Source of the DNA: Sunxiuqinia indica
GTDB lineage: Bacteria > Bacteroidota > Bacteroidia > Bacteroidales > Prolixibacteraceae
Assembly: GCF_009847015.1 (NCBI RefSeq)
Contig: NZ_WVEM01000007.1
Coordinates: 155,341 to 219,340, forward strand
Length of the DNA stretch: 64,000 bases
Direction: 5' to 3'
A program made the translations under genes and the position numbers. How positions within the stretch are numbered: position 1 is the first letter of the stretch; every line of letters begins with the position of its first letter. Of this stretch, positions 1 through 8,646 are shown piece after piece. The notes under the pieces were generated by a model that saw only the letters and a program-made list of their open reading frames with translations, ran no database searches and was not told the DNA's origin.

Positions 1-3000
1 CACTCAGGTTCACCGTGTGCATTTGAAACAGGTCGCGCATATTGGTTCCGAACAGGGAAAAATCGACAAACCAACCCTGACCGTATAGCCATATCATCAT
101 AAACCCGCCGCTAAATGCCATGGCAATCCCCGAGAAGACCATTAGGGAGGTGGTGACTGACTTAAACTGGAAGTAAAGAATCAGGAAAACAATGACCAAT
201 ACCAGCGGAACAATAATCGAGAGGCGTTTTTCGGCTCGCACCTGGTTTTCATAACTTCCGGAGAACTTGTAGCTTATTCCCGAAGGCACATCTAAATCTC
301 CGGCATCAATCCGGGACTGAATCGCATTCTGCGCATCATTGACTACACCAACTTCTGAAAAGCCTTCTCGTTTGTCGAATAAGACGTACCCGACCAAAAA
401 GGTCTCTTCACTTTTAATAGCCTGCGGCCCCCTTACATATTCAAAGTCAACAATCTGGGAGATTGGGATTTGTGCTCCTGTGGGGGTTGGGATTAAAATT
501 TTCCCTAACGATTCCGGGTCATCCCGAAGTTCGCGCGGATAGCGAACCCTGACCGGAAAACGTTCGCGGCCTTCTACGGTAGAAGTGATTTTCATACCGC
601 CAATAGCGGTTTCAATGGTTTGCTGGACATCCTCTACATTCAGGCCATAACGCGAAATCTGATCGCGGTTGATGTTGAGATGCAGGTAAGGTTTACCAAC
701 AATCCGGTCGGCAAACACCGCTTCGGCTTTTACCGAAGGGACTTCTTTCAATATCTCTTCCAGTTGCATCCCAAATGCTTCAATGGTTGGCAGGTCGGGG
801 CCATACACCTTAATTCCCATGGGCGCGCGCATACCCGTTTGCAACATAACAAGCCTCGTTTCAATGGGCTGCAGCTTTGGCGCAGAGGTAACCCCCGGTA
901 ATTTCGCCACCTTCACAATTTCGTTCCAAATATCATCGGGCGATTGGATATGGGGGCGCCAGTTACGGAAATAATTACCCCACTCATCGGGCACTAAATC
1001 GTTGCTGGTCACTCCGCGTTTCAAGGCTTCCTCGTTGCTAAGGGTGTCTCCATTCACAAGAATGAAGCGATCCTCCTTATCAACCTTAAACCGCTTGCGG
1101 TGCCCTTTTTCGTTAAGCATGTACTCCGGGCGGTAGTTGATCACGTTTTCGTACATCGAAATAGGAGCCGGGTCAAGCGCAGATTCTACCCTGCCTAATT
1201 TTCCAACGGTAAGCTCAACTTCAGGAATGTTGGTCAACAACATATCCAGTTGGCCTAAAACCTTCCGGTTGTACTCAAAACCCGAATGGGGCATGGAGGT
1301 AGGCATCAGCAAAAAGCTACCTTCGTTAAGTGAAGGCATAAATTCTTTTCCTATTGCAGGAAAAGTATGTGTCAGACCTGACCACACTTTAGTGGTCCGG
1401 ACATTCCATCCTACAGCATCAAAACCTTTGGCTACAAAGCCAAACAAAGAATTAAAACCGATAAAAGTTGTTGTTCCGAAGAGAATTAAAAAAGTAGGAA
1501 TCAACAGAAAGGTAACCTTATGCTCCAGGCACCATTTCAATATTGGTTTGTAGAAATACTCCAAAACGGTGAAGAACCCTAAAATAAGTATCACAATCAA
1601 AGCGACGAAAACCACATTCATCACCAAACTTTTGGAGGGTCCCAGCGGGAGCCAGTATTTGGCCAGCAGCCAAATCACACCAATAACTACGAGGATGATT
1701 TCAGCATGCTTAAGCATCCAATAGGCGAATGATTTTGCTTTTTGTTGAACTGATTTATTGGAAGAAGTAGCACCTTTGCTTCCGTTTAGTACCTCTCCTC
1801 CAGTATTTAACCTCGATCCTCTAAGCTCTTTTAACACACCTACAAGCCCAAATGCCAGGAACATCATTCCGCCCCAGATTTGCCCGAAAAAAAGAGCAGC
1901 AATACCAATGGGAATCAATATGATATTCACCCATTTCCTGATTTTCTGATTTTTGATTTTAGCGCCAAAAAACCAGTGGGCCAGCATGGGTAAAATAAAC
2001 AAGGAGACTATCAATGCGGCTATCAGTGCAAAGGTTTTGGTGAAAGCCAGCGGCCCAAAGAGTTTTCCTTCGGCAGCCTGCATCGTAAATACCGGAATGA
2101 AACTCACAATGGTGGTCGAAACTGCAGTAAGTATTGCAGAGCTTACTTCGGAAGCACCATTGTAAATGGTCGTTATCAGTTTTTGTCCGGGCGGGGCTTC
2201 ATCCACATGCTTGATGATATTTTCCGAGAGAATCACCCCTAAATCGACCATTGTTCCAATCGCAATGGCAATACCGGATAAAGCGACGATGTTGGCATCG
2301 ACACCAAAATAGCGCATAGCGATAAACACCATCAGTACGGAAATGGGCAACAAACTGGAGATTAAAAATGAGGCCCGGAGATTGTACACCATGACAATGA
2401 CCACCAGAATCACAATCAGAATTTGAAGTGAAATGGCCTCTTCCAATGTTCCCAATGTTTCGTATATCAATCCGGAGCGATCGTAAAAAGGCACGATCGT
2501 TAATTTGCTAACCACGCCATTTTCCAATGTTTTTTGTGGCAGTCCGGGCGAAATCTCCTTGATTTTGTCTTTCACATTGTTGATAACCTGCAACGGGTTG
2601 GCACCGTAGCGGGCAACGACCACGCCACCGACCACCTCCGCGCCATCTTTGTCCAGCGCGCCACGGCGGGTGGCAGGTCCTAAACTAACCACCCCAATGT
2701 CCTGAACGCGGATCGGTACATTTTCCTGAACGGCTACCACCGCTTTTTCAATGTCCTCCACCTTTTTGATGTAGCCTAACCCACGAACCAGATACTCCGC
2801 CTGGTTGATTTCGATAGTCTTGGCGCCAACGTCCCTGTTTGATTTTTGAACCGCCTGCATCACTTTATGCAGTGGTATGTTGTAAGCTTTGAGTGCATCA
2901 GGGTTTACGTCAATTTGGTATTCTTGCACAAAACCGCCAATCGAAGCTACTTCCGAAACACCTTCGGTGGCATTCAATCCATATTTCACGTAGAAATCCT

Positions 3001-3532
3001 GTACCGACCGGATCTCATGCAAATCCCAGCCGCCAGTTGGATTCCCTTCCTTGTCGCGGCCCTCAATCGTATACCAATACACTTGTCCCAAGGCTGTGGC
3101 ATCGGGTCCAAGTGCCGGCTGCACACCCTCCGGGAGCAAACCCGAAGGCAGCGAACTTAGTTTCTCAAGAATTCGAGAGCGCGACCAGTAAAACTCAATG
3201 TCTTCGTCAAAAATGATGAAGATGCTGGAAAATCCGAAAATCGATGAACTCCGGATGGATTTTACCCCCGGGATTCCAAGAAGATAAGTGGTTAATGGAT
3301 AGGAAATTTGATCTTCAATATCCTGAGGCGAACGCCCCATCCATTCGGTGAAAACAATCTGTTGGTTTTCGCCAATGTCGGGAATGGCATCTACCGGAAC
3401 CGGATCTTTTGGTAAAATACCGGTATCCCAGCCAAATGGAGAAGTTACGATTCCCCAACTCACAAAAAGGATGAGTATTAATGATGTAACGAGCTTATTT
3501 TCGAGAAAAAAACGAATTGTTTTATTCAACAT
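1..3532 (-). CDS. cusA: CusA/CzcA-family heavy-metal efflux RND permease, 3' end cut by window edge
   Basis: Inner-membrane RND pump subunit that drives export of Cu(I)/Ag(I) or divalent metals across the envelope using protons. Reading the minus strand from the ATG at 3532 gives an open frame to the window edge (about 1177 codons) starting MLNKTIRFFLENKLVTS, with the typical N-terminal membrane segment, then VPVDAIPDIGENQQIVFTEW and GRSPQDIEDQISYPL, all hallmarks of the HME-RND group. A central transmembrane block around 2290-1940 contains GTMVDLGVILSEN, where the Asp and Glu match the proton-relay pair of CusA (MVDAAIVMIEN). A second long periplasmic domain and C-terminal helices follow; the final part is outside the window. 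It is the last visible gene of a minus-strand metal island, with the HYC_CC_PP gene directly upstream. The family is certain; the preference for copper/silver over zinc/cobalt/cadmium is inferred from the neighbouring multicopper oxidase. Confidence 0.95.
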   Translation of the reverse strand, partial: MLNKTIRFFLENKLVTSLILILFVSWGIVTSPFGWDTGILPKDPVPVDAIPDIGENQQIVFTEWMGRSPQDIEDQISYPLTTYLLGIPGVKSIRSSSIFGFSSIFIIFDEDIEFYWSRSRILEKLSSLPSGLLPEGVQPALGPDATALGQVYWYTIEGRDKEGNPTGGWDLHEIRSVQDFYVKYGLNATEGVSEVASIGGFVQEYQIDVNPDALKAYNIPLHKVMQAVQKSNRDVGAKTIEINQAEYLVRGLGYIKKVEDIEKAVVAVQENVPIRVQDIGVVSLGPATRRGALDKDGAEVVGGVVVARYGANPLQVINNVKDKIKEISPGLPQKTLENGVVSKLTIVPFYDRSGLIYETLGTLEEAISLQILIVILVVIVMVYNLRASFLISSLLPISVLMVFIAMRYFGVDANIVALSGIAIAIGTMVDLGVILSENIIKHVDEAPPGQKLITTIYNGASEVSSAILTAVSTTIVSFIPVFTMQAAEGKLFGPLAFTKTFALIAALIVSLFILPMLAHWFFGAKIKNQKIRKWVNIILIPIGIAALFFGQIWGGMMFLAFGLVGVLKELRGSRLNTGGEVLNGSKGATSSNKSVQQKAKSFAYWMLKHAEIILVVIGVIWLLAKYWLPLGPSKSLVMNVVFVALIVILILGFFTVLEYFYKPILKWCLEHKVTFLLIPTFLILFGTTTFIGFNSLFGFVAKGFDAVGWNVRTTKVWSGLTHTFPAIGKEFMPSLNEGSFLLMPTSMPHSGFEYNRKVLGQLDMLLTNIPEVELTVGKLGRVESALDPAPISMYENVINYRPEYMLNEKGHRKRFKVDKEDRFILVNGDTLSNEEALKRGVTSNDLVPDEWGNYFRNWRPHIQSPDDIWNEIVKVAKLPGVTSAPKLQPIETRLVMLQTGMRAPMGIKVYGPDLPTIEAFGMQLEEILKEVPSVKAEAVFADRIVGKPYLHLNINRDQISRYGLNVEDVQQTIETAIGGMKITSTVEGRERFPVRVRYPRELRDDPESLGKILIPTPTGAQIPISQIVDFEYVRGPQAIKSEETFLVGYVLFDKREGFSEVGVVNDAQNAIQSRIDAGDLDVPSGISYKFSGSYENQVRAEKRLSIIVPLVLVIVFLILYFQFKSVTTSLMVFSGIAMAFSGGFMMIWLYGQGWFVDFSLFGTNMRDLFQMHTVNLS

Positions 3533-3624: not shown

Positions 3625-3999
3625 TCATAAAAGAAATACTTCTTTTAACGCGAGTGTTTTTTGAATGGGAAGTAAAGGAGGTGCTTCAATAAAACTAAGA
3701 CTTGCAACTTCTGTTACAGGAGCATTTAATAATCCCACAGCGAGCAAATCATGCCCCAAAATATCGAGTTCGGCTAAAACCGGGATGCATGAAACAGCAG
3801 GGACTGAAAAATCCTCTTTAACCTGATAGACCTGCGTTTCGTTGCGGCAGCAGCTGTCCATGTCACAGCAGGATTTTGCTTCATTAAAAATAGCAACTGA
3901 TTCGAGTGAACCTGCGCAATAATGTTTTGACACAGCCATCCCCATTGTTGAAATCAACAACAAGGCAGATAAAATGATATGGCTGATTCTTTTTAACAT
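3625..3999 (-). CDS. HYC_CC_PP family small exported protein
   Basis: A 124-residue protein with an N-terminal signal-like hydrophobic segment (residues 5-22), then a SKHYCAGSL motif, a Cys cluster CCDMDSCC near residues 44-51 and a C-terminal APPLLP. This combination matches the Bacteroidota HYC_CC_PP family, whose name describes these motifs. Members are commonly seen beside RND metal-efflux genes, and here it lies 92 bases upstream of the cusA start. The clustered cysteines suggest metal binding outside the cytoplasm, but no biochemical role is established that I know of. The assignment to the named family rests on motif recognition alone. Confidence 0.8.
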   Translation of the reverse strand: MLKRISHIILSALLLISTMGMAVSKHYCAGSLESVAIFNEAKSCCDMDSCCRNETQVYQVKEDFSVPAVSCIPVLAELDILGHDLLAVGLLNAPVTEVASLSFIEAPPLLPIQKTLALKEVFLL

Positions 4000-4203: not shown

Positions 4204-5502
4204 TTAGTTTGATTCTTCTTGTCTTGAAAGAAACCATTTCTCACCAAAGTAAATAAGTAACATAGCTCCTATAGCAACAAGCACCACTGGCAAGTCGTTT
4301 TTTGCTTTCGTTAAAACAAAACCGGATAGAACAACCAGATCGAGTACAATCGCAGAAATTACGATTGCTGGTTTAAAGTCAATCTTTCCGCGTAAATTTT
4401 TTAGCAGTCCGTAGTGTATCCCAATGTCCATAACCAGGTAAAAAATTGCGCCGAGCGAAGCAATTCTGGAGAGGTCGAATAAAACAGTAAGCAGGATTGC
4501 AAGCCCGGCGATGTACACCAGCATGTGTTTTTGAATCCTGCCCGACATCCCAAGGTGGCTGTGGGGGATCAGTTTCATTTCGGTGAGCATGGCAGTCATT
4601 CGCGAAACGGCAAATATGCTTGCGATTATTCCAGAGATTGTGGCAATGATGGCCACAAAAACAGTGACCCAAACGCCATATTTCCCAAAAGCAGGACGAG
4701 CTGCTTCGGCAAGCGAATAATCCTTTGCAGAAATGATTTGCTCAATTGATAAAGACGAAGCCACCGAAATGGCTACTAAATAATAAAGCACCACACAAAT
4801 AGCAATGGAAATGATAATAGCGCGGCCTACATTTTTGTGTGGTTTTTTAATCTCATCACCACTGTTGGTAATGGTTGTAAACCCTTTGTAAGCCAAAATG
4901 GTAAGTGCCAATGCACCTATAAAGCTTGTTATTGACTTGTCGGGAAGGGTTTTTGGAAGGGGGGCGCTGAAACTAAAACCAGCAGCCCACAAACCTCCGA
5001 TGGCCAAAACCGCCAATCCGCCAACTTTTAAAACCGCCATCGTAAACGATGATTTTTCAATGAATTTATTGCCCGAAATATTTACCACAAATGCCAACAC
5101 GATAAGGGCAACTCCAAGCACCGGCACCCAGAAGGTATTTTTTTCCACATCAAACAACTGCAACACATAGGTGCCAAATGTACGGGCAACCAAACTTTCA
5201 TTGATGATCATTGAAAAAGCCATCAGCAGCGCCGCAAATGCGGTGAAGGTGGTTTTGCCATATTCCTTTTTCAGGTACATACCAATGCCGCCGGCCGAGG
5301 GAAACGCATTGGATAATTTAACGTATGAATAGGCGCTAAAAGCAGATATTATCGCGCCAATTACAAATGCGATAGGAAAAAGATTTCCGGATAATTCGGC
5401 AACCTGTCCCAACAATGCAAATATTCCGGCACCAATCATCACTCCCGTCCCCATAGAAACGGCGCCAGTTAACGAAAGACTATTTTTTTTGTAATCATTC
5501 AT
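4204..5502 (-). CDS. APC-family amino acid permease
   Basis: A 432-residue polytopic inner-membrane protein with about 12 hydrophobic segments. The N-terminal segment GVMIGAGIFALLGQ fits the APC-superfamily TM1 motif (GxGIF) that binds the substrate amino group and carboxylate, and a conserved FGKYGVW segment appears before TM8. The family exchanges or takes up amino acids with protons. It sits inside the metal island, which is unusual; a link to metal stress (for example uptake of metal-binding amino acids) is only a guess. A decayed beta-barrel fragment runs into its start codon, suggesting the gene was joined here by rearrangement. Substrate cannot be told from sequence. Confidence 0.88.
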   Translation of the reverse strand: MNDYKKNSLSLTGAVSMGTGVMIGAGIFALLGQVAELSGNLFPIAFVIGAIISAFSAYSYVKLSNAFPSAGGIGMYLKKEYGKTTFTAFAALLMAFSMIINESLVARTFGTYVLQLFDVEKNTFWVPVLGVALIVLAFVVNISGNKFIEKSSFTMAVLKVGGLAVLAIGGLWAAGFSFSAPLPKTLPDKSITSFIGALALTILAYKGFTTITNSGDEIKKPHKNVGRAIIISIAICVVLYYLVAISVASSLSIEQIISAKDYSLAEAARPAFGKYGVWVTVFVAIIATISGIIASIFAVSRMTAMLTEMKLIPHSHLGMSGRIQKHMLVYIAGLAILLTVLFDLSRIASLGAIFYLVMDIGIHYGLLKNLRGKIDFKPAIVISAIVLDLVVLSGFVLTKAKNDLPVVLVAIGAMLLIYFGEKWFLSRQEESN

Positions 5503-5666: not shown

Positions 5667-6125
5667 CTATTTTCCTTTTTCTACCGGCAATCCTAAAGTT
5701 ACCCAGTCGTGCATACCACCGCGGTAGTACAATATTTTATCGGGCGGGTAACCGGCCTCCAGTAAATTGCGGATGGCGGATGGCGATTGCGGGCATTGCG
5801 GCCCGTTACAAAAGAAAATGGCAGGTTCATCACGGTTCAATTCATCCATCCGATCGACCACTTCTTTGTGCGGTATGTTTTTCGCTCCGGGGATGGTCGA
5901 CACTTTGTAGAAATCCGGAGTGCGGCCGTCGATAACCTGCTTCCCTTTTTCCAGCGAATCATTTAGTTCAATCTCATCTACCGTTCTAATTCCATCGGCT
6001 ACTTTAATTGGCTGAATTTTGCCCCATGTGGTATCAACCTGTACCAATCCGGTTTTGTCTTTCACCGGTTGCGGCACCATTTGCGAATCGCCTTTTTTTT
6101 GATTACGTTTTTCATTAATATCCAT
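5667..6125 (-). CDS. Rhodanese-like domain protein with C-x-G-P-x-C active loop
   Basis: A 152-residue protein with a single rhodanese domain over roughly residues 35-150 and no signal peptide, so probably cytoplasmic. The putative sulfur-carrier loop reads FFCNGPQCPQSP, that is C-N-G-P-Q-C, a two-cysteine loop like the CRGPYC subtype known from ArsR-rhodanese fusions rather than the canonical single-Cys loop. The downstream LYYRGGMHDWVTLGLPVE is the conserved C-terminal rhodanese signature. The gene lies 15 bases after the SHOCT gene and appears co-transcribed with it and the Spy-like gene. Role is probably persulfide transfer or thiol-based metal handling; the substrate is not known. Confidence 0.88.
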   Translation of the reverse strand: MDINEKRNQKKGDSQMVPQPVKDKTGLVQVDTTWGKIQPIKVADGIRTVDEIELNDSLEKGKQVIDGRTPDFYKVSTIPGAKNIPHKEVVDRMDELNRDEPAIFFCNGPQCPQSPSAIRNLLEAGYPPDKILYYRGGMHDWVTLGLPVEKGK

Positions 6126-6140
6126 TTTGTATTTCTTATT

Positions 6141-6374
6141 TTATAATAAATCTTTCTTCTGTTCTTCAAATTTCTGCTTGTCAATTTCACCGCGGGCATA
6201 TCGTTCTTTTAAAATGTCCAAAGCCGTTTTACCGGTTCTTTGATTCGTTGATTGATTGTTTTGATTCAATCCTTTTACAAGCATCCAAACAACCACAACT
6301 ATTATAATAAGACCGATGATCCACCACCAGCCCATTCCCATTCCCCAGCTGTGTCCTTCAAATCCGTTCATCAT
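6141..6374 (-). CDS. SHOCT-domain small membrane protein
   Basis: A 77-residue protein: a Gly/Trp/Met-rich N terminus, one transmembrane helix (about residues 17-34, WIIGLIIIVVVVWMLV), then a C-terminal SHOCT domain (LDILKERYARGEIDKQKFEE). SHOCT domains are short oligomerisation modules often placed at protein termini. It is 17 bases downstream of the Spy-like gene and 15 bases upstream of the rhodanese, so an operon is likely. Small SHOCT membrane proteins are frequent in copper-resistance clusters; no reaction is known. Confidence 0.85.
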   Translation of the reverse strand: MMNGFEGHSWGMGMGWWWIIGLIIIVVVVWMLVKGLNQNNQSTNQRTGKTALDILKERYARGEIDKQKFEEQKKDLL

Positions 6375-6391
6375 AAGATTCTCCTTCCTTT

Positions 6392-6970
6392 TTACTGGTT
6401 ATTATGATTTTGCATCATTCCGCCTTGTTTGTGCATCATTCCCTCCTCATGCTGCATCATACTTTTCATTTGTTCTTTTTGGTCGCTATTCAATACAGCT
6501 TTCATTTTTCCGGCGGTTTCGTAAGCGGCCACTTTCATGCTGATTTTGGTGTCGGTACAATCCTGCATCTGTTTTTCAATCTGGTTTGCAGACGCCATAT
6601 CACCCAACAGGTTTTTGAGCTTCATCTTTTTTTTGCGTAGTTCCGATTGATAGTCAATTTGTTGTTTTTTAAACTCAGCCTGCAAGTCATACAATTGTTC
6701 AACCTGGTCATCGTTTAGTGATAACTGTTGCTGCATATTGGGGAGGTGATTGACCATGATCCCGTACTTTTTCATGGGCATGTCCTGACTCATCATTTTA
6801 CTGCACATGGGGCACATTCCGCTGTTCATCATGGCCTGCATCATGTCACTTTTTTGCATCATCATGCCTTGTTTTTTATTTTGACTGTTTTTCTGTCCCA
6901 TCATTTGGGCGTTTGCTGTGTACCCTGCCATAAAGAATAGGGCCGTTACTATAATTATTAACTTTTTCAT
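6392..6970 (-). CDS. Met-rich Spy/CpxP-like (LTxxQ) periplasmic protein
   Basis: Starts at the ATG at 6970 (MKKLIIIVTALFFMAGYTANA, a clear signal peptide); a further upstream ATG at 6997 would put a charged extension before the signal and is less likely. The mature protein is very rich in Met (MMGQKNSQ, MMQKSDMMQAMM, a CPMC pair, and a C-terminal Met/His tail). Two helix motifs, LNDDQ and LNSDQ, correspond to the LTxxQ repeats of the Spy/CpxP/CnrX-like fold, which is a periplasmic chaperone or metal sensor. The Met, His and Cys content suggests Cu(I) or Ag(I) binding. First gene of a tight three-gene group with SHOCT and rhodanese, 95 bases after the multicopper oxidase. Confidence 0.82.
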   Translation of the reverse strand: MKKLIIIVTALFFMAGYTANAQMMGQKNSQNKKQGMMMQKSDMMQAMMNSGMCPMCSKMMSQDMPMKKYGIMVNHLPNMQQQLSLNDDQVEQLYDLQAEFKKQQIDYQSELRKKKMKLKNLLGDMASANQIEKQMQDCTDTKISMKVAAYETAGKMKAVLNSDQKEQMKSMMQHEEGMMHKQGGMMQNHNNQ

Positions 6971-7065
6971 TTTTATTAGTTTTAAGTATTCATACAAAGT
7001 ATTTGATAATTAACTTCTTAATCGTTGCGTGATTTTAAGAAGAATTTACAGTGTTTTATCCGTTG

Positions 7066-8646
7066 TCATACTACTTCATAATTGCGCATCATTCCCATAT
7101 CCTCGTGTTCCAAGTTGTGGCAGTGATAGACATATGTTCCTTTAAAATCTTTGAACTTCATCACTATCTTAACTTTCATGCCCGGCATTAGCAAAAAGGT
7201 ATCTTGCCAGCCTTCATCCATGAAACCGTCTTTTATCGTTTCCCAAACTGCGCTTTCCATTCCGGAAACATCGCGGTCGATAATTTGAAATTGCAAACCA
7301 TGCAGATGAACAGGGTGAGGCATGCGCATCATATCCTGCATCATGCCCATGCCGCGGCCATCGTCGCCGTTGATAAATTCCCAAATCTCGGTAGTTCCCA
7401 GTTTTACTTTTTCCCAATCGGCCACTTCGGTCATCCCAAATGTTTCGCCATTGATGACCCACTGCATGCGCTGGTTATAAAAATAGAATTGTCTGGGCGA
7501 GTTAGAATTTACCGCTTTTACGGCGTCTGTTTTTTTTATGGGTGAAAAAGAAGCAGGCAATGTTTTGATTTCGCCCTCGTTTTTGGTGATTTTAAAACGG
7601 GCAACATTGAATGCATTGCCGTTTTGTGTGTCTTCGGATTGCATCATCCCACCCATCATTCCGCCGCCCATCCCCATGGATGTACCACTGTTAAAAGCAA
7701 GACTTTCTAATTGAATTTCGTCGGTGTTTTTCGCTTCTGAAAAGTCTTTCCAGATTTCGGCACGTTGACCAGGAGCAAGCATCAGGTAGTTTTTTTTGAT
7801 TGGCTTTTCTAAAAGTCCGCCATCCGTGCCGATTACAGTCACATCGCTGCCATCGCTCCATGCTAATTTATATATTCGTGAGTTGGAACCGTTTAGCACC
7901 CGAAATCGATAGGTCGCCTTCGAAACTTCCATTATTTGTTCCGGGGAACCGTTCACGATGATTTGCTTGCCTAAAAAACCCTGCATTTGCCCCATCCGGC
8001 TATTCTGCAAATAAACCAGTTGGTTGTTGTTGTCGAACGTTCGATCCTGGATAATTAATGGGATATCATATTCACCGCTTGGCAAATCCTCATTCACACC
8101 TTCAACGATAAACATTCCTGCCAAGCCTTGATAAACCTGCGGCCCGGTAATTTTATCGGGATGAGGATGGAACCAATAGGTGCCGGGTCGATTGTTTACT
8201 TCAAATTCGTAAATGTATTGTTTGCCGTTTTCAATGGCATACATCGGATGCCCGTCCATTTCGGGCGGAATGTGCAACCCATGCCAGTGTATTACACTTT
8301 CGTGTGGAAGCTGGTTTTTAAAACGAACGCGAATTTTTTGCCCATTTCTTACCCGGACGACTGGACCGAGATATGAATCCGGCAATTTTTCGAGTGATGC
8401 ATTTTCGCCTTTCAACAATTTTGACTGATAAGAATAAATATTTGTTGGGTTGCCGGGGAAAAGTTGTAATTCCGATGGAGTAGCTGTCAGTTCAAGATCA
8501 ACATCAGGCTCAAAATCACTATTAACTCGATAATTTCCCGAGATTGTTTTTTGTTGACCATCAGTGGAGCAAAAGACCAACGAAGGAACTAATGTGGTCA
8601 AGGTAACTCCTTTGGCAGAATTTTTTAAAAATTGCTTTCGGTTCAT
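7066..8646 (-). CDS. Multicopper oxidase (CueO-like)
   Basis: A 526-residue exported oxidase probably converting Cu(I) to less toxic Cu(II). The N terminus MNRKQFLKNSAKGVTLTTLV resembles a Tat-type or lipoprotein-like signal ending in VFCS. All copper-site motifs are present: HWHGLHIPP and YWFHPHPD in the first cupredoxin domain, and HPVHLHGLQF and YHCHNLEHEDMGMM in the last (type 1 and trinuclear sites). A Met-rich insert (GMGGGMMGGMM) near residues 328-338 recalls the Met-rich loop of CueO that delivers Cu(I). It is the first gene of the minus-strand metal island, preceded by a roughly 600-base gap from the divergent epimerase gene. Confidence 0.93.
   Translation of the reverse strand: MNRKQFLKNSAKGVTLTTLVPSLVFCSTDGQQKTISGNYRVNSDFEPDVDLELTATPSELQLFPGNPTNIYSYQSKLLKGENASLEKLPDSYLGPVVRVRNGQKIRVRFKNQLPHESVIHWHGLHIPPEMDGHPMYAIENGKQYIYEFEVNNRPGTYWFHPHPDKITGPQVYQGLAGMFIVEGVNEDLPSGEYDIPLIIQDRTFDNNNQLVYLQNSRMGQMQGFLGKQIIVNGSPEQIMEVSKATYRFRVLNGSNSRIYKLAWSDGSDVTVIGTDGGLLEKPIKKNYLMLAPGQRAEIWKDFSEAKNTDEIQLESLAFNSGTSMGMGGGMMGGMMQSEDTQNGNAFNVARFKITKNEGEIKTLPASFSPIKKTDAVKAVNSNSPRQFYFYNQRMQWVINGETFGMTEVADWEKVKLGTTEIWEFINGDDGRGMGMMQDMMRMPHPVHLHGLQFQIIDRDVSGMESAVWETIKDGFMDEGWQDTFLLMPGMKVKIVMKFKDFKGTYVYHCHNLEHEDMGMMRNYEVV

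Follow-up and report, generated by a model that had tools for sequence, protein, structure and literature searches.

Three small genes of Sunxiuqinia indica lie nearly end to end and encode a methionine-rich Spy-like protein, a SHOCT membrane protein, and a rhodanese, which raises the question of whether they act together as one unit or belong to something larger. An earlier note on this DNA, a window of 64,000 nucleotides, had interpreted them as a co-transcribed set in which a periplasmic metal-binding protein, a membrane oligomeriser, and a cytoplasmic thiol protein could relay a metal or redox signal across the membrane.

The three genes and their surroundings

All three genes are on the minus strand. 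They encode a Spy/CpxP/CnrX-like Met-rich protein of 192 aa that begins at the ATG at 6970 (6392..6970; assigned from Pfam and predicted fold), a single-helix SHOCT membrane protein of 77 aa (6141..6374; PF09851 at 30.1 bits against a cut-off of 27, covering the C-terminal residues 50-77 of 77, together with a family motif and metal-gene context), and a single-domain rhodanese of 152 aa (5667..6125; PF00581 at 53.6 bits against a cut-off of 22.2, together with conservation). The intergenic gaps are 17 nt between the Spy-like and SHOCT genes and 15 nt between the SHOCT and rhodanese genes. The open reading frames, the Pfam matches, and a second genomic copy all agree that the three-gene unit is real, with the gaps and domains described earlier, and its gene set and order are directly established. 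That second copy, carried elsewhere in the genome on contig C34, has the same core order, with genes for a thioredoxin-like protein and a DUF302 protein inserted between SHOCT and rhodanese; as both are absent from the window copy, a compact trio is left there. A search at E 0.01 located the thioredoxin-like gene of this genome in the C34 copy only. The window and C34 proteins share 72% (rhodanese), 64% (SHOCT), and 73% (Spy) identity, while dN is 0.16-0.25 and dS is 1.4-1.7 across the trio. By this comparison, the trio genes are under purifying selection, and because the second copy has diverged with dN far below dS, the arrangement is not due to chance. A Cu P-type ATPase gene is also found on C34. 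The same contig contains a broken extra SHOCT copy (G000:C34:192118-192335, minus strand), which consists of two overlapping fragments, one of them with an internal stop.

The trio is part of a longer heavy-metal efflux cluster, all on the same strand. A CueO-like multicopper oxidase gene (7066..8646; the best NCBIfam model is CueO at 257.6 bits, below its cut-off of 525) precedes the Spy-like gene at a distance of 95 nt, and on the other side of the trio are an APC-family permease (4204..5502; Pfam), a HYC_CC_PP family protein (3625..3999; NF047658 at 47.5 bits, cut-off 28), and a CusA/CzcA-type heavy-metal RND pump that runs off the window (1..3532; TIGR00914), the truncated protein scoring 690.7 bits against a cut-off of 701.45. 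Beyond the window, the same strand continues with genes for a CusC-type OEP, a CusB-type adaptor (HMBD, DUF3347), and an HMA protein. The CusCBA-type set of pump, adaptor, and outer-membrane factor is therefore complete (ACR_tran 498.5, HlyD_D23 239.2, and OEP 139.4 bits). The cluster resembles CusCBA/CueO copper-silver clusters in its RND pump, adaptor, outer-membrane factor, CueO-like oxidase, and HMA protein, but differs from them in its extra Spy-like and SHOCT pair, APC permease, HYC_CC_PP protein, and rhodanese with a CNGPQC loop. CusA/CzcA pumps also export other metals, which counts against an assignment to Cu/Ag. From the oxidase gene through the HMA gene, no anti-sigma/sigma partners of the CnrYXH type were found among the identified genes. 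Just past the HMA end of the cluster is a gene for a GDCCVxC-domain protein (L181:15212-15424, minus strand; NF041374 at 91.6 bits, cut-off 40).

Promoter and terminator scans at the cluster found no excess over shuffled sequence. Bacteroidota promoters follow a -33/-7 pattern, and zero sites of this pattern were found at the cluster. The 95-nt intergenic stretch 5' of the Spy-like gene (6971..7065, minus strand) holds TTAATTATCA followed by TA.TTTGTA, an arrangement common to four of five aligned upstream regions, and this stretch is a possible promoter of the Spy-like gene's own.

Co-occurrence of the three genes

Among 61 genomes (that of S. indica and its relatives), the rhodanese was found in 2 (E 1e-10), the Spy-like protein in 4, and the SHOCT protein in 12 (E 0.001). 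A sample of 296 Bacteroidota genomes yielded the rhodanese in 5 (E 1e-15), the Spy-like protein in 31 (profile, E 1e-5), and the SHOCT protein in 49 (E 1e-5). Thirteen of the 296 genomes have both Spy-like and SHOCT matches (Fisher p 3e-4), a matching SHOCT is present in all five rhodanese genomes (p 1e-4), and a Spy-like match in two of these five (p 0.09), all three p values ignoring relatedness. The full trio is present in only 2 of the 296 genomes, so we rejected the trio as a conserved unit on the co-occurrence counts; rare co-occurrence, which the earlier note had named as evidence against its proposal, is largely what is observed. Direct adjacency of Spy, SHOCT, and rhodanese genes was seen in the window and at locus L032, where the rhodanese is a thioredoxin-rhodanese fusion. 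L006, L027, and L031 keep this order, but other genes separate SHOCT from the rhodanese there.

What does recur, as observed directly, are couples: the Spy-like protein with SHOCT and, apart from that, the rhodanese with either SHOCT or the thioredoxin-like protein. For 67 rhodanese loci (65 from searches, plus the window and the C34 copy), phmmer clusters within 6 kb were compiled. SHOCT proteins occur near 35 of them (22 at a stricter E 1e-8), multicopper oxidases near 29, DUF302-like proteins near 18, APC permeases like that of the window near 17, other Met-rich proteins near 14, and Spy-like proteins near 6, being absent near the remaining 61. Oxidase, Cu ATPase, or Cus genes are within this distance at 41 loci, and 26 are without any of them (both at E 1e-8); when limited to the 59 loci of at least 8 kb, 22 are without. 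The loci are partly redundant, since L058/L063 and L059/L061 are near-identical pairs, and cluster 3 (a mix of HMA and ATPase proteins) is an impure single-linkage cluster that was left unused. At Flavobacteriia-type loci (L048:10764-11321, L063:8943-9509, and others), other Met-rich proteins with MMxKNPEMM-like repeats are encoded near SHOCT and rhodanese; these are perhaps stand-ins for the Spy-like protein.

The Spy-like protein and its SHOCT partner

The Spy-like protein begins with a signal peptide, recognised by eye, followed by a Met-rich head containing C-P-M-C, a helical domain at approximately residues 64-181, and a Met-rich tail. With the LTXXQ (Spy/CpxP) model PF07813 the window protein scores 21.8 bits, just below the cut-off of 24.3, whereas the orthologue from Sunxiuqinia dokdonensis (L031) scores 28.0 and is above it; the model matches five of the six rows of A4 at E 0.01. 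The paired LTxxQ-type motifs are present as LNDDQ and LNSDQ under the relaxed pattern L[TSN]xxQ, and the C34 copy has exact LTDDQ and LTNDQ. The AlphaFold2 model has block-mean pLDDT values of 89-94 at residues 81-170 and low values for the head and the last residues, and the head is probably disordered. In VIA, ranks 1-12 were occupied by CnrX, NccX, CpxP, and Spy with Z of 9.0-10.2 (CnrX 10.2, CpxP 9.7, Spy 9.0), next to 8.5 for unrelated I-BAR domains and 8.3 for ZraP, a range in which, by the tool's own note for Z below ~13, a match may reflect a common helical arrangement. Foldseek also placed CnrX/NccX at the top, although weakly (best E 0.25, with zero matches at E 0.001 or better). Together, these models are suggestive of a CnrX/CpxP/Spy-type fold, in agreement with the LTxxQ-type motifs. 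A PDB sequence search with the Spy-like profile was empty, and a plasmid collection gave zero Spy-like matches at E 1e-5. The predicted helical fold and the paired motifs resemble those of the Spy/CpxP/ZraP/CnrX (LTXXQ) family, while the high Met content (16% here), the Met/Cys head, the Met-rich tail, and the frequent SHOCT membrane partner set this protein apart. Our literature search found no paper in which CnrX, Spy, CpxP, and ZraP are treated together.

In the phylum sample, a SHOCT gene is within 500 bp at 10 of 33 Spy-profile loci. This adjacency follows Met content, as it was observed at 10/12 loci encoding at least 15% Met versus 0/20 loci at 11% or less (Fisher p 1e-6), with the cut having been set after inspection of the data, locus G107 of the 33 left out, and the G126 locus scored by L038, a contig of equal length. 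SHOCT-paired relatives contain 15-26% Met, and the ten pairs come from five genera, half of them from a single genus.

The SHOCT protein itself has one membrane helix preceded by the N-terminal motif HSWGMGMGWWW. Across 75 homologues (E values above 1e-6 and lengths above 100 aa excluded, very short segments such as MMW included), the segment before the helix contains 16.2% Met, 7.8% His, and 16.4% Trp, compared to 1.7%, 0.5%, and 0.4% in the part after it; the segments as counted run three or four residues into the hydrophobic window. At least two Met/His residues are found before the helix in 63/75 homologues, and Met/His near Trp in 61/75, a count that is partly circular because the homologues were chosen by similarity to the window protein. 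Since the arrangements differ (HSWGMGMGWWW, GPHMVWGMHWGWW, HFGGMHLIWW, FGGGWMMFFWW), it is composition that is conserved, rather than exact sequence. From its charge, judged by eye, we infer that the Met/His/Trp segment faces outside.

For a comparison independent of the trio, we searched 118 genomes with PF09851 and took 20 of the 46 small SHOCT matches (frame of at most 120 aa), with ~6 kb per side; the 26 omitted were chiefly beside Spy-like or rhodanese loci that had already been fetched, plus several others. Fifteen of the 20 loci encode a protein like that of the window (E 1e-8), and multicopper oxidase, Cu ATPase, or Cus genes were present at 12 of these 15, as opposed to 2 of 20 control regions (p 4e-5), the controls being hand-placed rather than random, with 19 sharing contigs with the SHOCT loci. 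One of the three window-like loci without metal genes (L219) is on a 3.7-kb contig. When the unlike proteins are included, metal genes were found at 13/20 loci. Four of the five unlike proteins have no Met/His/Trp segment, and the fifth (L231) has both the segment and metal genes nearby.

In its C-terminal two-helix SHOCT segment above the Pfam cut-off, the window protein is like other SHOCT-domain proteins (PF09851), whereas its length of 77 aa, single membrane helix, and preceding Met/His/Trp segment distinguish it from SHOCT proteins generally. The paper describing SHOCT, Eberhardt et al. 2013 (PMC3581485), leaves the function of the domain open and reports a negative self-association test for one SHOCT domain; its initial experiments thus lend no support to the membrane oligomeriser of the earlier note. 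In Haloferax, according to PMC10694973, a SHOCT membrane protein is induced by silver. PMC10656224 describes SilF as binding Ag(I)/Cu(I) by His63, Met74, and Met76; its Ag(I) site also includes Trp71. The window protein has an H-x-W-x-M-x-M that resembles this, but by its sequence it has no beta-barrel, its spacing is different, and it is membrane-bound. We rejected membership of CusF/SilF, as its 77 aa appear to contain only a short pre-helix segment, a hydrophobic stretch, and the SHOCT segment. Our literature search found no paper linking the 77-aa Met/His/Trp type of SHOCT protein to copper clusters, and none tying SHOCT to rhodanese and copper resistance, LTXXQ, or multicopper oxidase.

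The rhodanese and the role of the set

The rhodanese has the loop CNGPQC (C-x-G-P-x-C) with cysteines C106 and C111 and, by eye, no signal peptide. C106 is kept in 67/67 rows and C111 in 65/65 ungapped rows, and C.GP.C..S is matched by 57/67, given that one seed pattern of the locus search included the CNGPQC loop. The loop was also found in four phylum matches from a pattern-free whole-genome search, two of which lie on contigs equal in length to L038 and L039. Homologues are also found in Actinobacteria and Chloroflexi. Zero NCBIfam models are above cut-off for this protein (best 35.5 versus 115). It shares the rhodanese fold with ArsR-rhodanese fusions and other single-domain rhodaneses, and one ArsR-rhodanese sequence has a CRGPYC loop, but it differs in its own N-terminal DTTWGxIQP segment and in its frequent fusion to a C-x-H-R thioredoxin-like domain.

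This thioredoxin-like domain is fused to the rhodanese at 14/67 loci and is encoded by a separate same-strand gene at 12/67 (26/67 in total); 11 of the 12 separate genes are within 1 kb of the rhodanese, and two are partial ORFs. In the fusions (L032:6755-7450, L041:9773-10450, and 12 further loci), it forms the N-terminus. Pfam Thioredoxin_3 is above cut-off for L006 and L032 and below it for L041, and the model of the L032 fusion has a thioredoxin-type strand/helix order with pLDDT near 95. With this model, rhodaneses head the Foldseek list, and no thioredoxin-fold entry is among the 50 best matches listed; the domain call therefore rests on Pfam and the predicted strand-helix order. A PDB sequence search with the thioredoxin-like protein was empty. 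The coupling of the two proteins favours thiol or sulfane-sulfur chemistry. Plasmid records include one with SHOCT and multicopper oxidase genes within 7 kb of the rhodanese and one with DUF302 and multicopper oxidase genes, while in two plasmid relatives that are more distant no oxidase, Cu ATPase, or Cus gene is annotated nearby, the second having an RND permease of unstated substrate. Given these two relatives and the 26 loci without metal genes, a metal role for the rhodanese is not a given.

Two further features were observed at rhodanese loci. AraC-type regulators near 6/67 loci (L005:9391-9951, minus strand, and relatives) have an N-terminal C-x-R-C (CQRC, CPRC) in a region that looks by eye like an HMA remnant, Pfam giving the HTH part only. 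Locus L005 also encodes three small proteins in a row (7767-7997, 8116-8334, and 8407-8619, minus strand) with a C-P-M-K-C or C-L-M-K-C motif and, by eye, the look of heavy-metal-binding domains, beside a Cu P-type ATPase and fairly close to a TraG-like conjugation gene (L005:463-2472, by eye).

We consider it fairly probable, judging from sequence and gene context, that the trio are accessory genes in a cluster for Cu(I)/Ag(I) tolerance, in which the Spy-like and SHOCT proteins would buffer periplasmic Cu(I)/Ag(I) and the rhodanese would serve as a thiol or sulfane-sulfur accessory. The tight same-strand spacing, the Met-rich protein with its predicted metal-sensor/chaperone-type fold, and the metal context of the earlier interpretation stand, whereas the oligomeriser and the three-part relay find no support. 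Such a relay would have the Spy-like protein sense periplasmic metal, the SHOCT protein transmit its state through the membrane, and the rhodanese respond in the cytoplasm. The topologies are compatible by eye, the metal sensor CnrX is the best fold match, and SHOCT adjoins both partners, but the rarity of the full trio, the couples that exist without the third member (including Spy-SHOCT pairs in genomes without a rhodanese match), the few Spy-like genes near rhodanese loci, the occurrence of the rhodanese in Gram-positive phyla, and the failure to find a regulator, sigma or anti-sigma gene, or signal-output domain among the identified cluster genes make it highly improbable.

Somewhat less improbable, though still unlikely, is that the Spy-like protein is an envelope folding chaperone that curbs periplasmic aggregation in metal stress, with its methionines as oxidant sinks and the other two proteins as passengers. 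The predicted Spy/CpxP-type fold would suit this, as would the repair of oxidised methionines in E. coli Spy that PMC12503329 describes; the pairing of SHOCT with the Met-rich subset, and not with Met-poor LTxxQ proteins, indicates metal ligation instead. The rhodanese could also be a general sulfide/persulfide-detoxification gene that is merely carried in metal islands, which we regard as rather unlikely. Its DUF302 and thioredoxin-like partners and its many loci without scored metal genes agree with this, as does an Arthrobacter plasmid sulfur module (PMC6305408) in which two rhodaneses occur with a CsoR-family regulator and DUF302. Opposed to it are the 41 loci with oxidase, Cu ATPase, or Cus genes, the 35 with SHOCT, and the matching SHOCT in every phylum genome that has the rhodanese.

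For the preferred reading, that of accessory genes in a metal-tolerance cluster, we infer Cu(I)/Ag(I) as the metal. The secreted Spy-like protein may bind Cu(I) via its Met/Cys head and tail and shield or chaperone periplasmic proteins. The SHOCT protein would span the inner membrane, its small Met/His/Trp site exposed on the outer side and its SHOCT helix pair on the inner. There it could dock the Spy-like protein or else pass or buffer Cu(I) at the membrane face, close to the oxidase and pump. The rhodanese, in the cytoplasm, would be an addition apart from these two, a thiol or sulfane-sulfur protein often accompanied by the C-x-H-R thioredoxin-like protein, that under metal stress might preserve cytosolic thiols or Fe-S clusters, or bind Cu(I). 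A bolder and quite tentative proposal is that SHOCT proteins with a CusF-like periplasmic Cu(I)/Ag(I) site, docking Met-rich Spy-type proteins, may form a widespread metal module that is unnamed within the searches made. The parts are new in combination, not in kind, and should this proposal fail, an ordinary copper-tolerance cluster would remain. If it is true, SHOCT would gain its first concrete role, to hold Cu(I) at the inner membrane or pass it on, a function that is directly testable, as this type of SHOCT protein comes with metal clusters, a candidate motif, and a frequent partner. The CNGPQC rhodanese and its thioredoxin-like partner would provide an equally testable cytoplasmic set.
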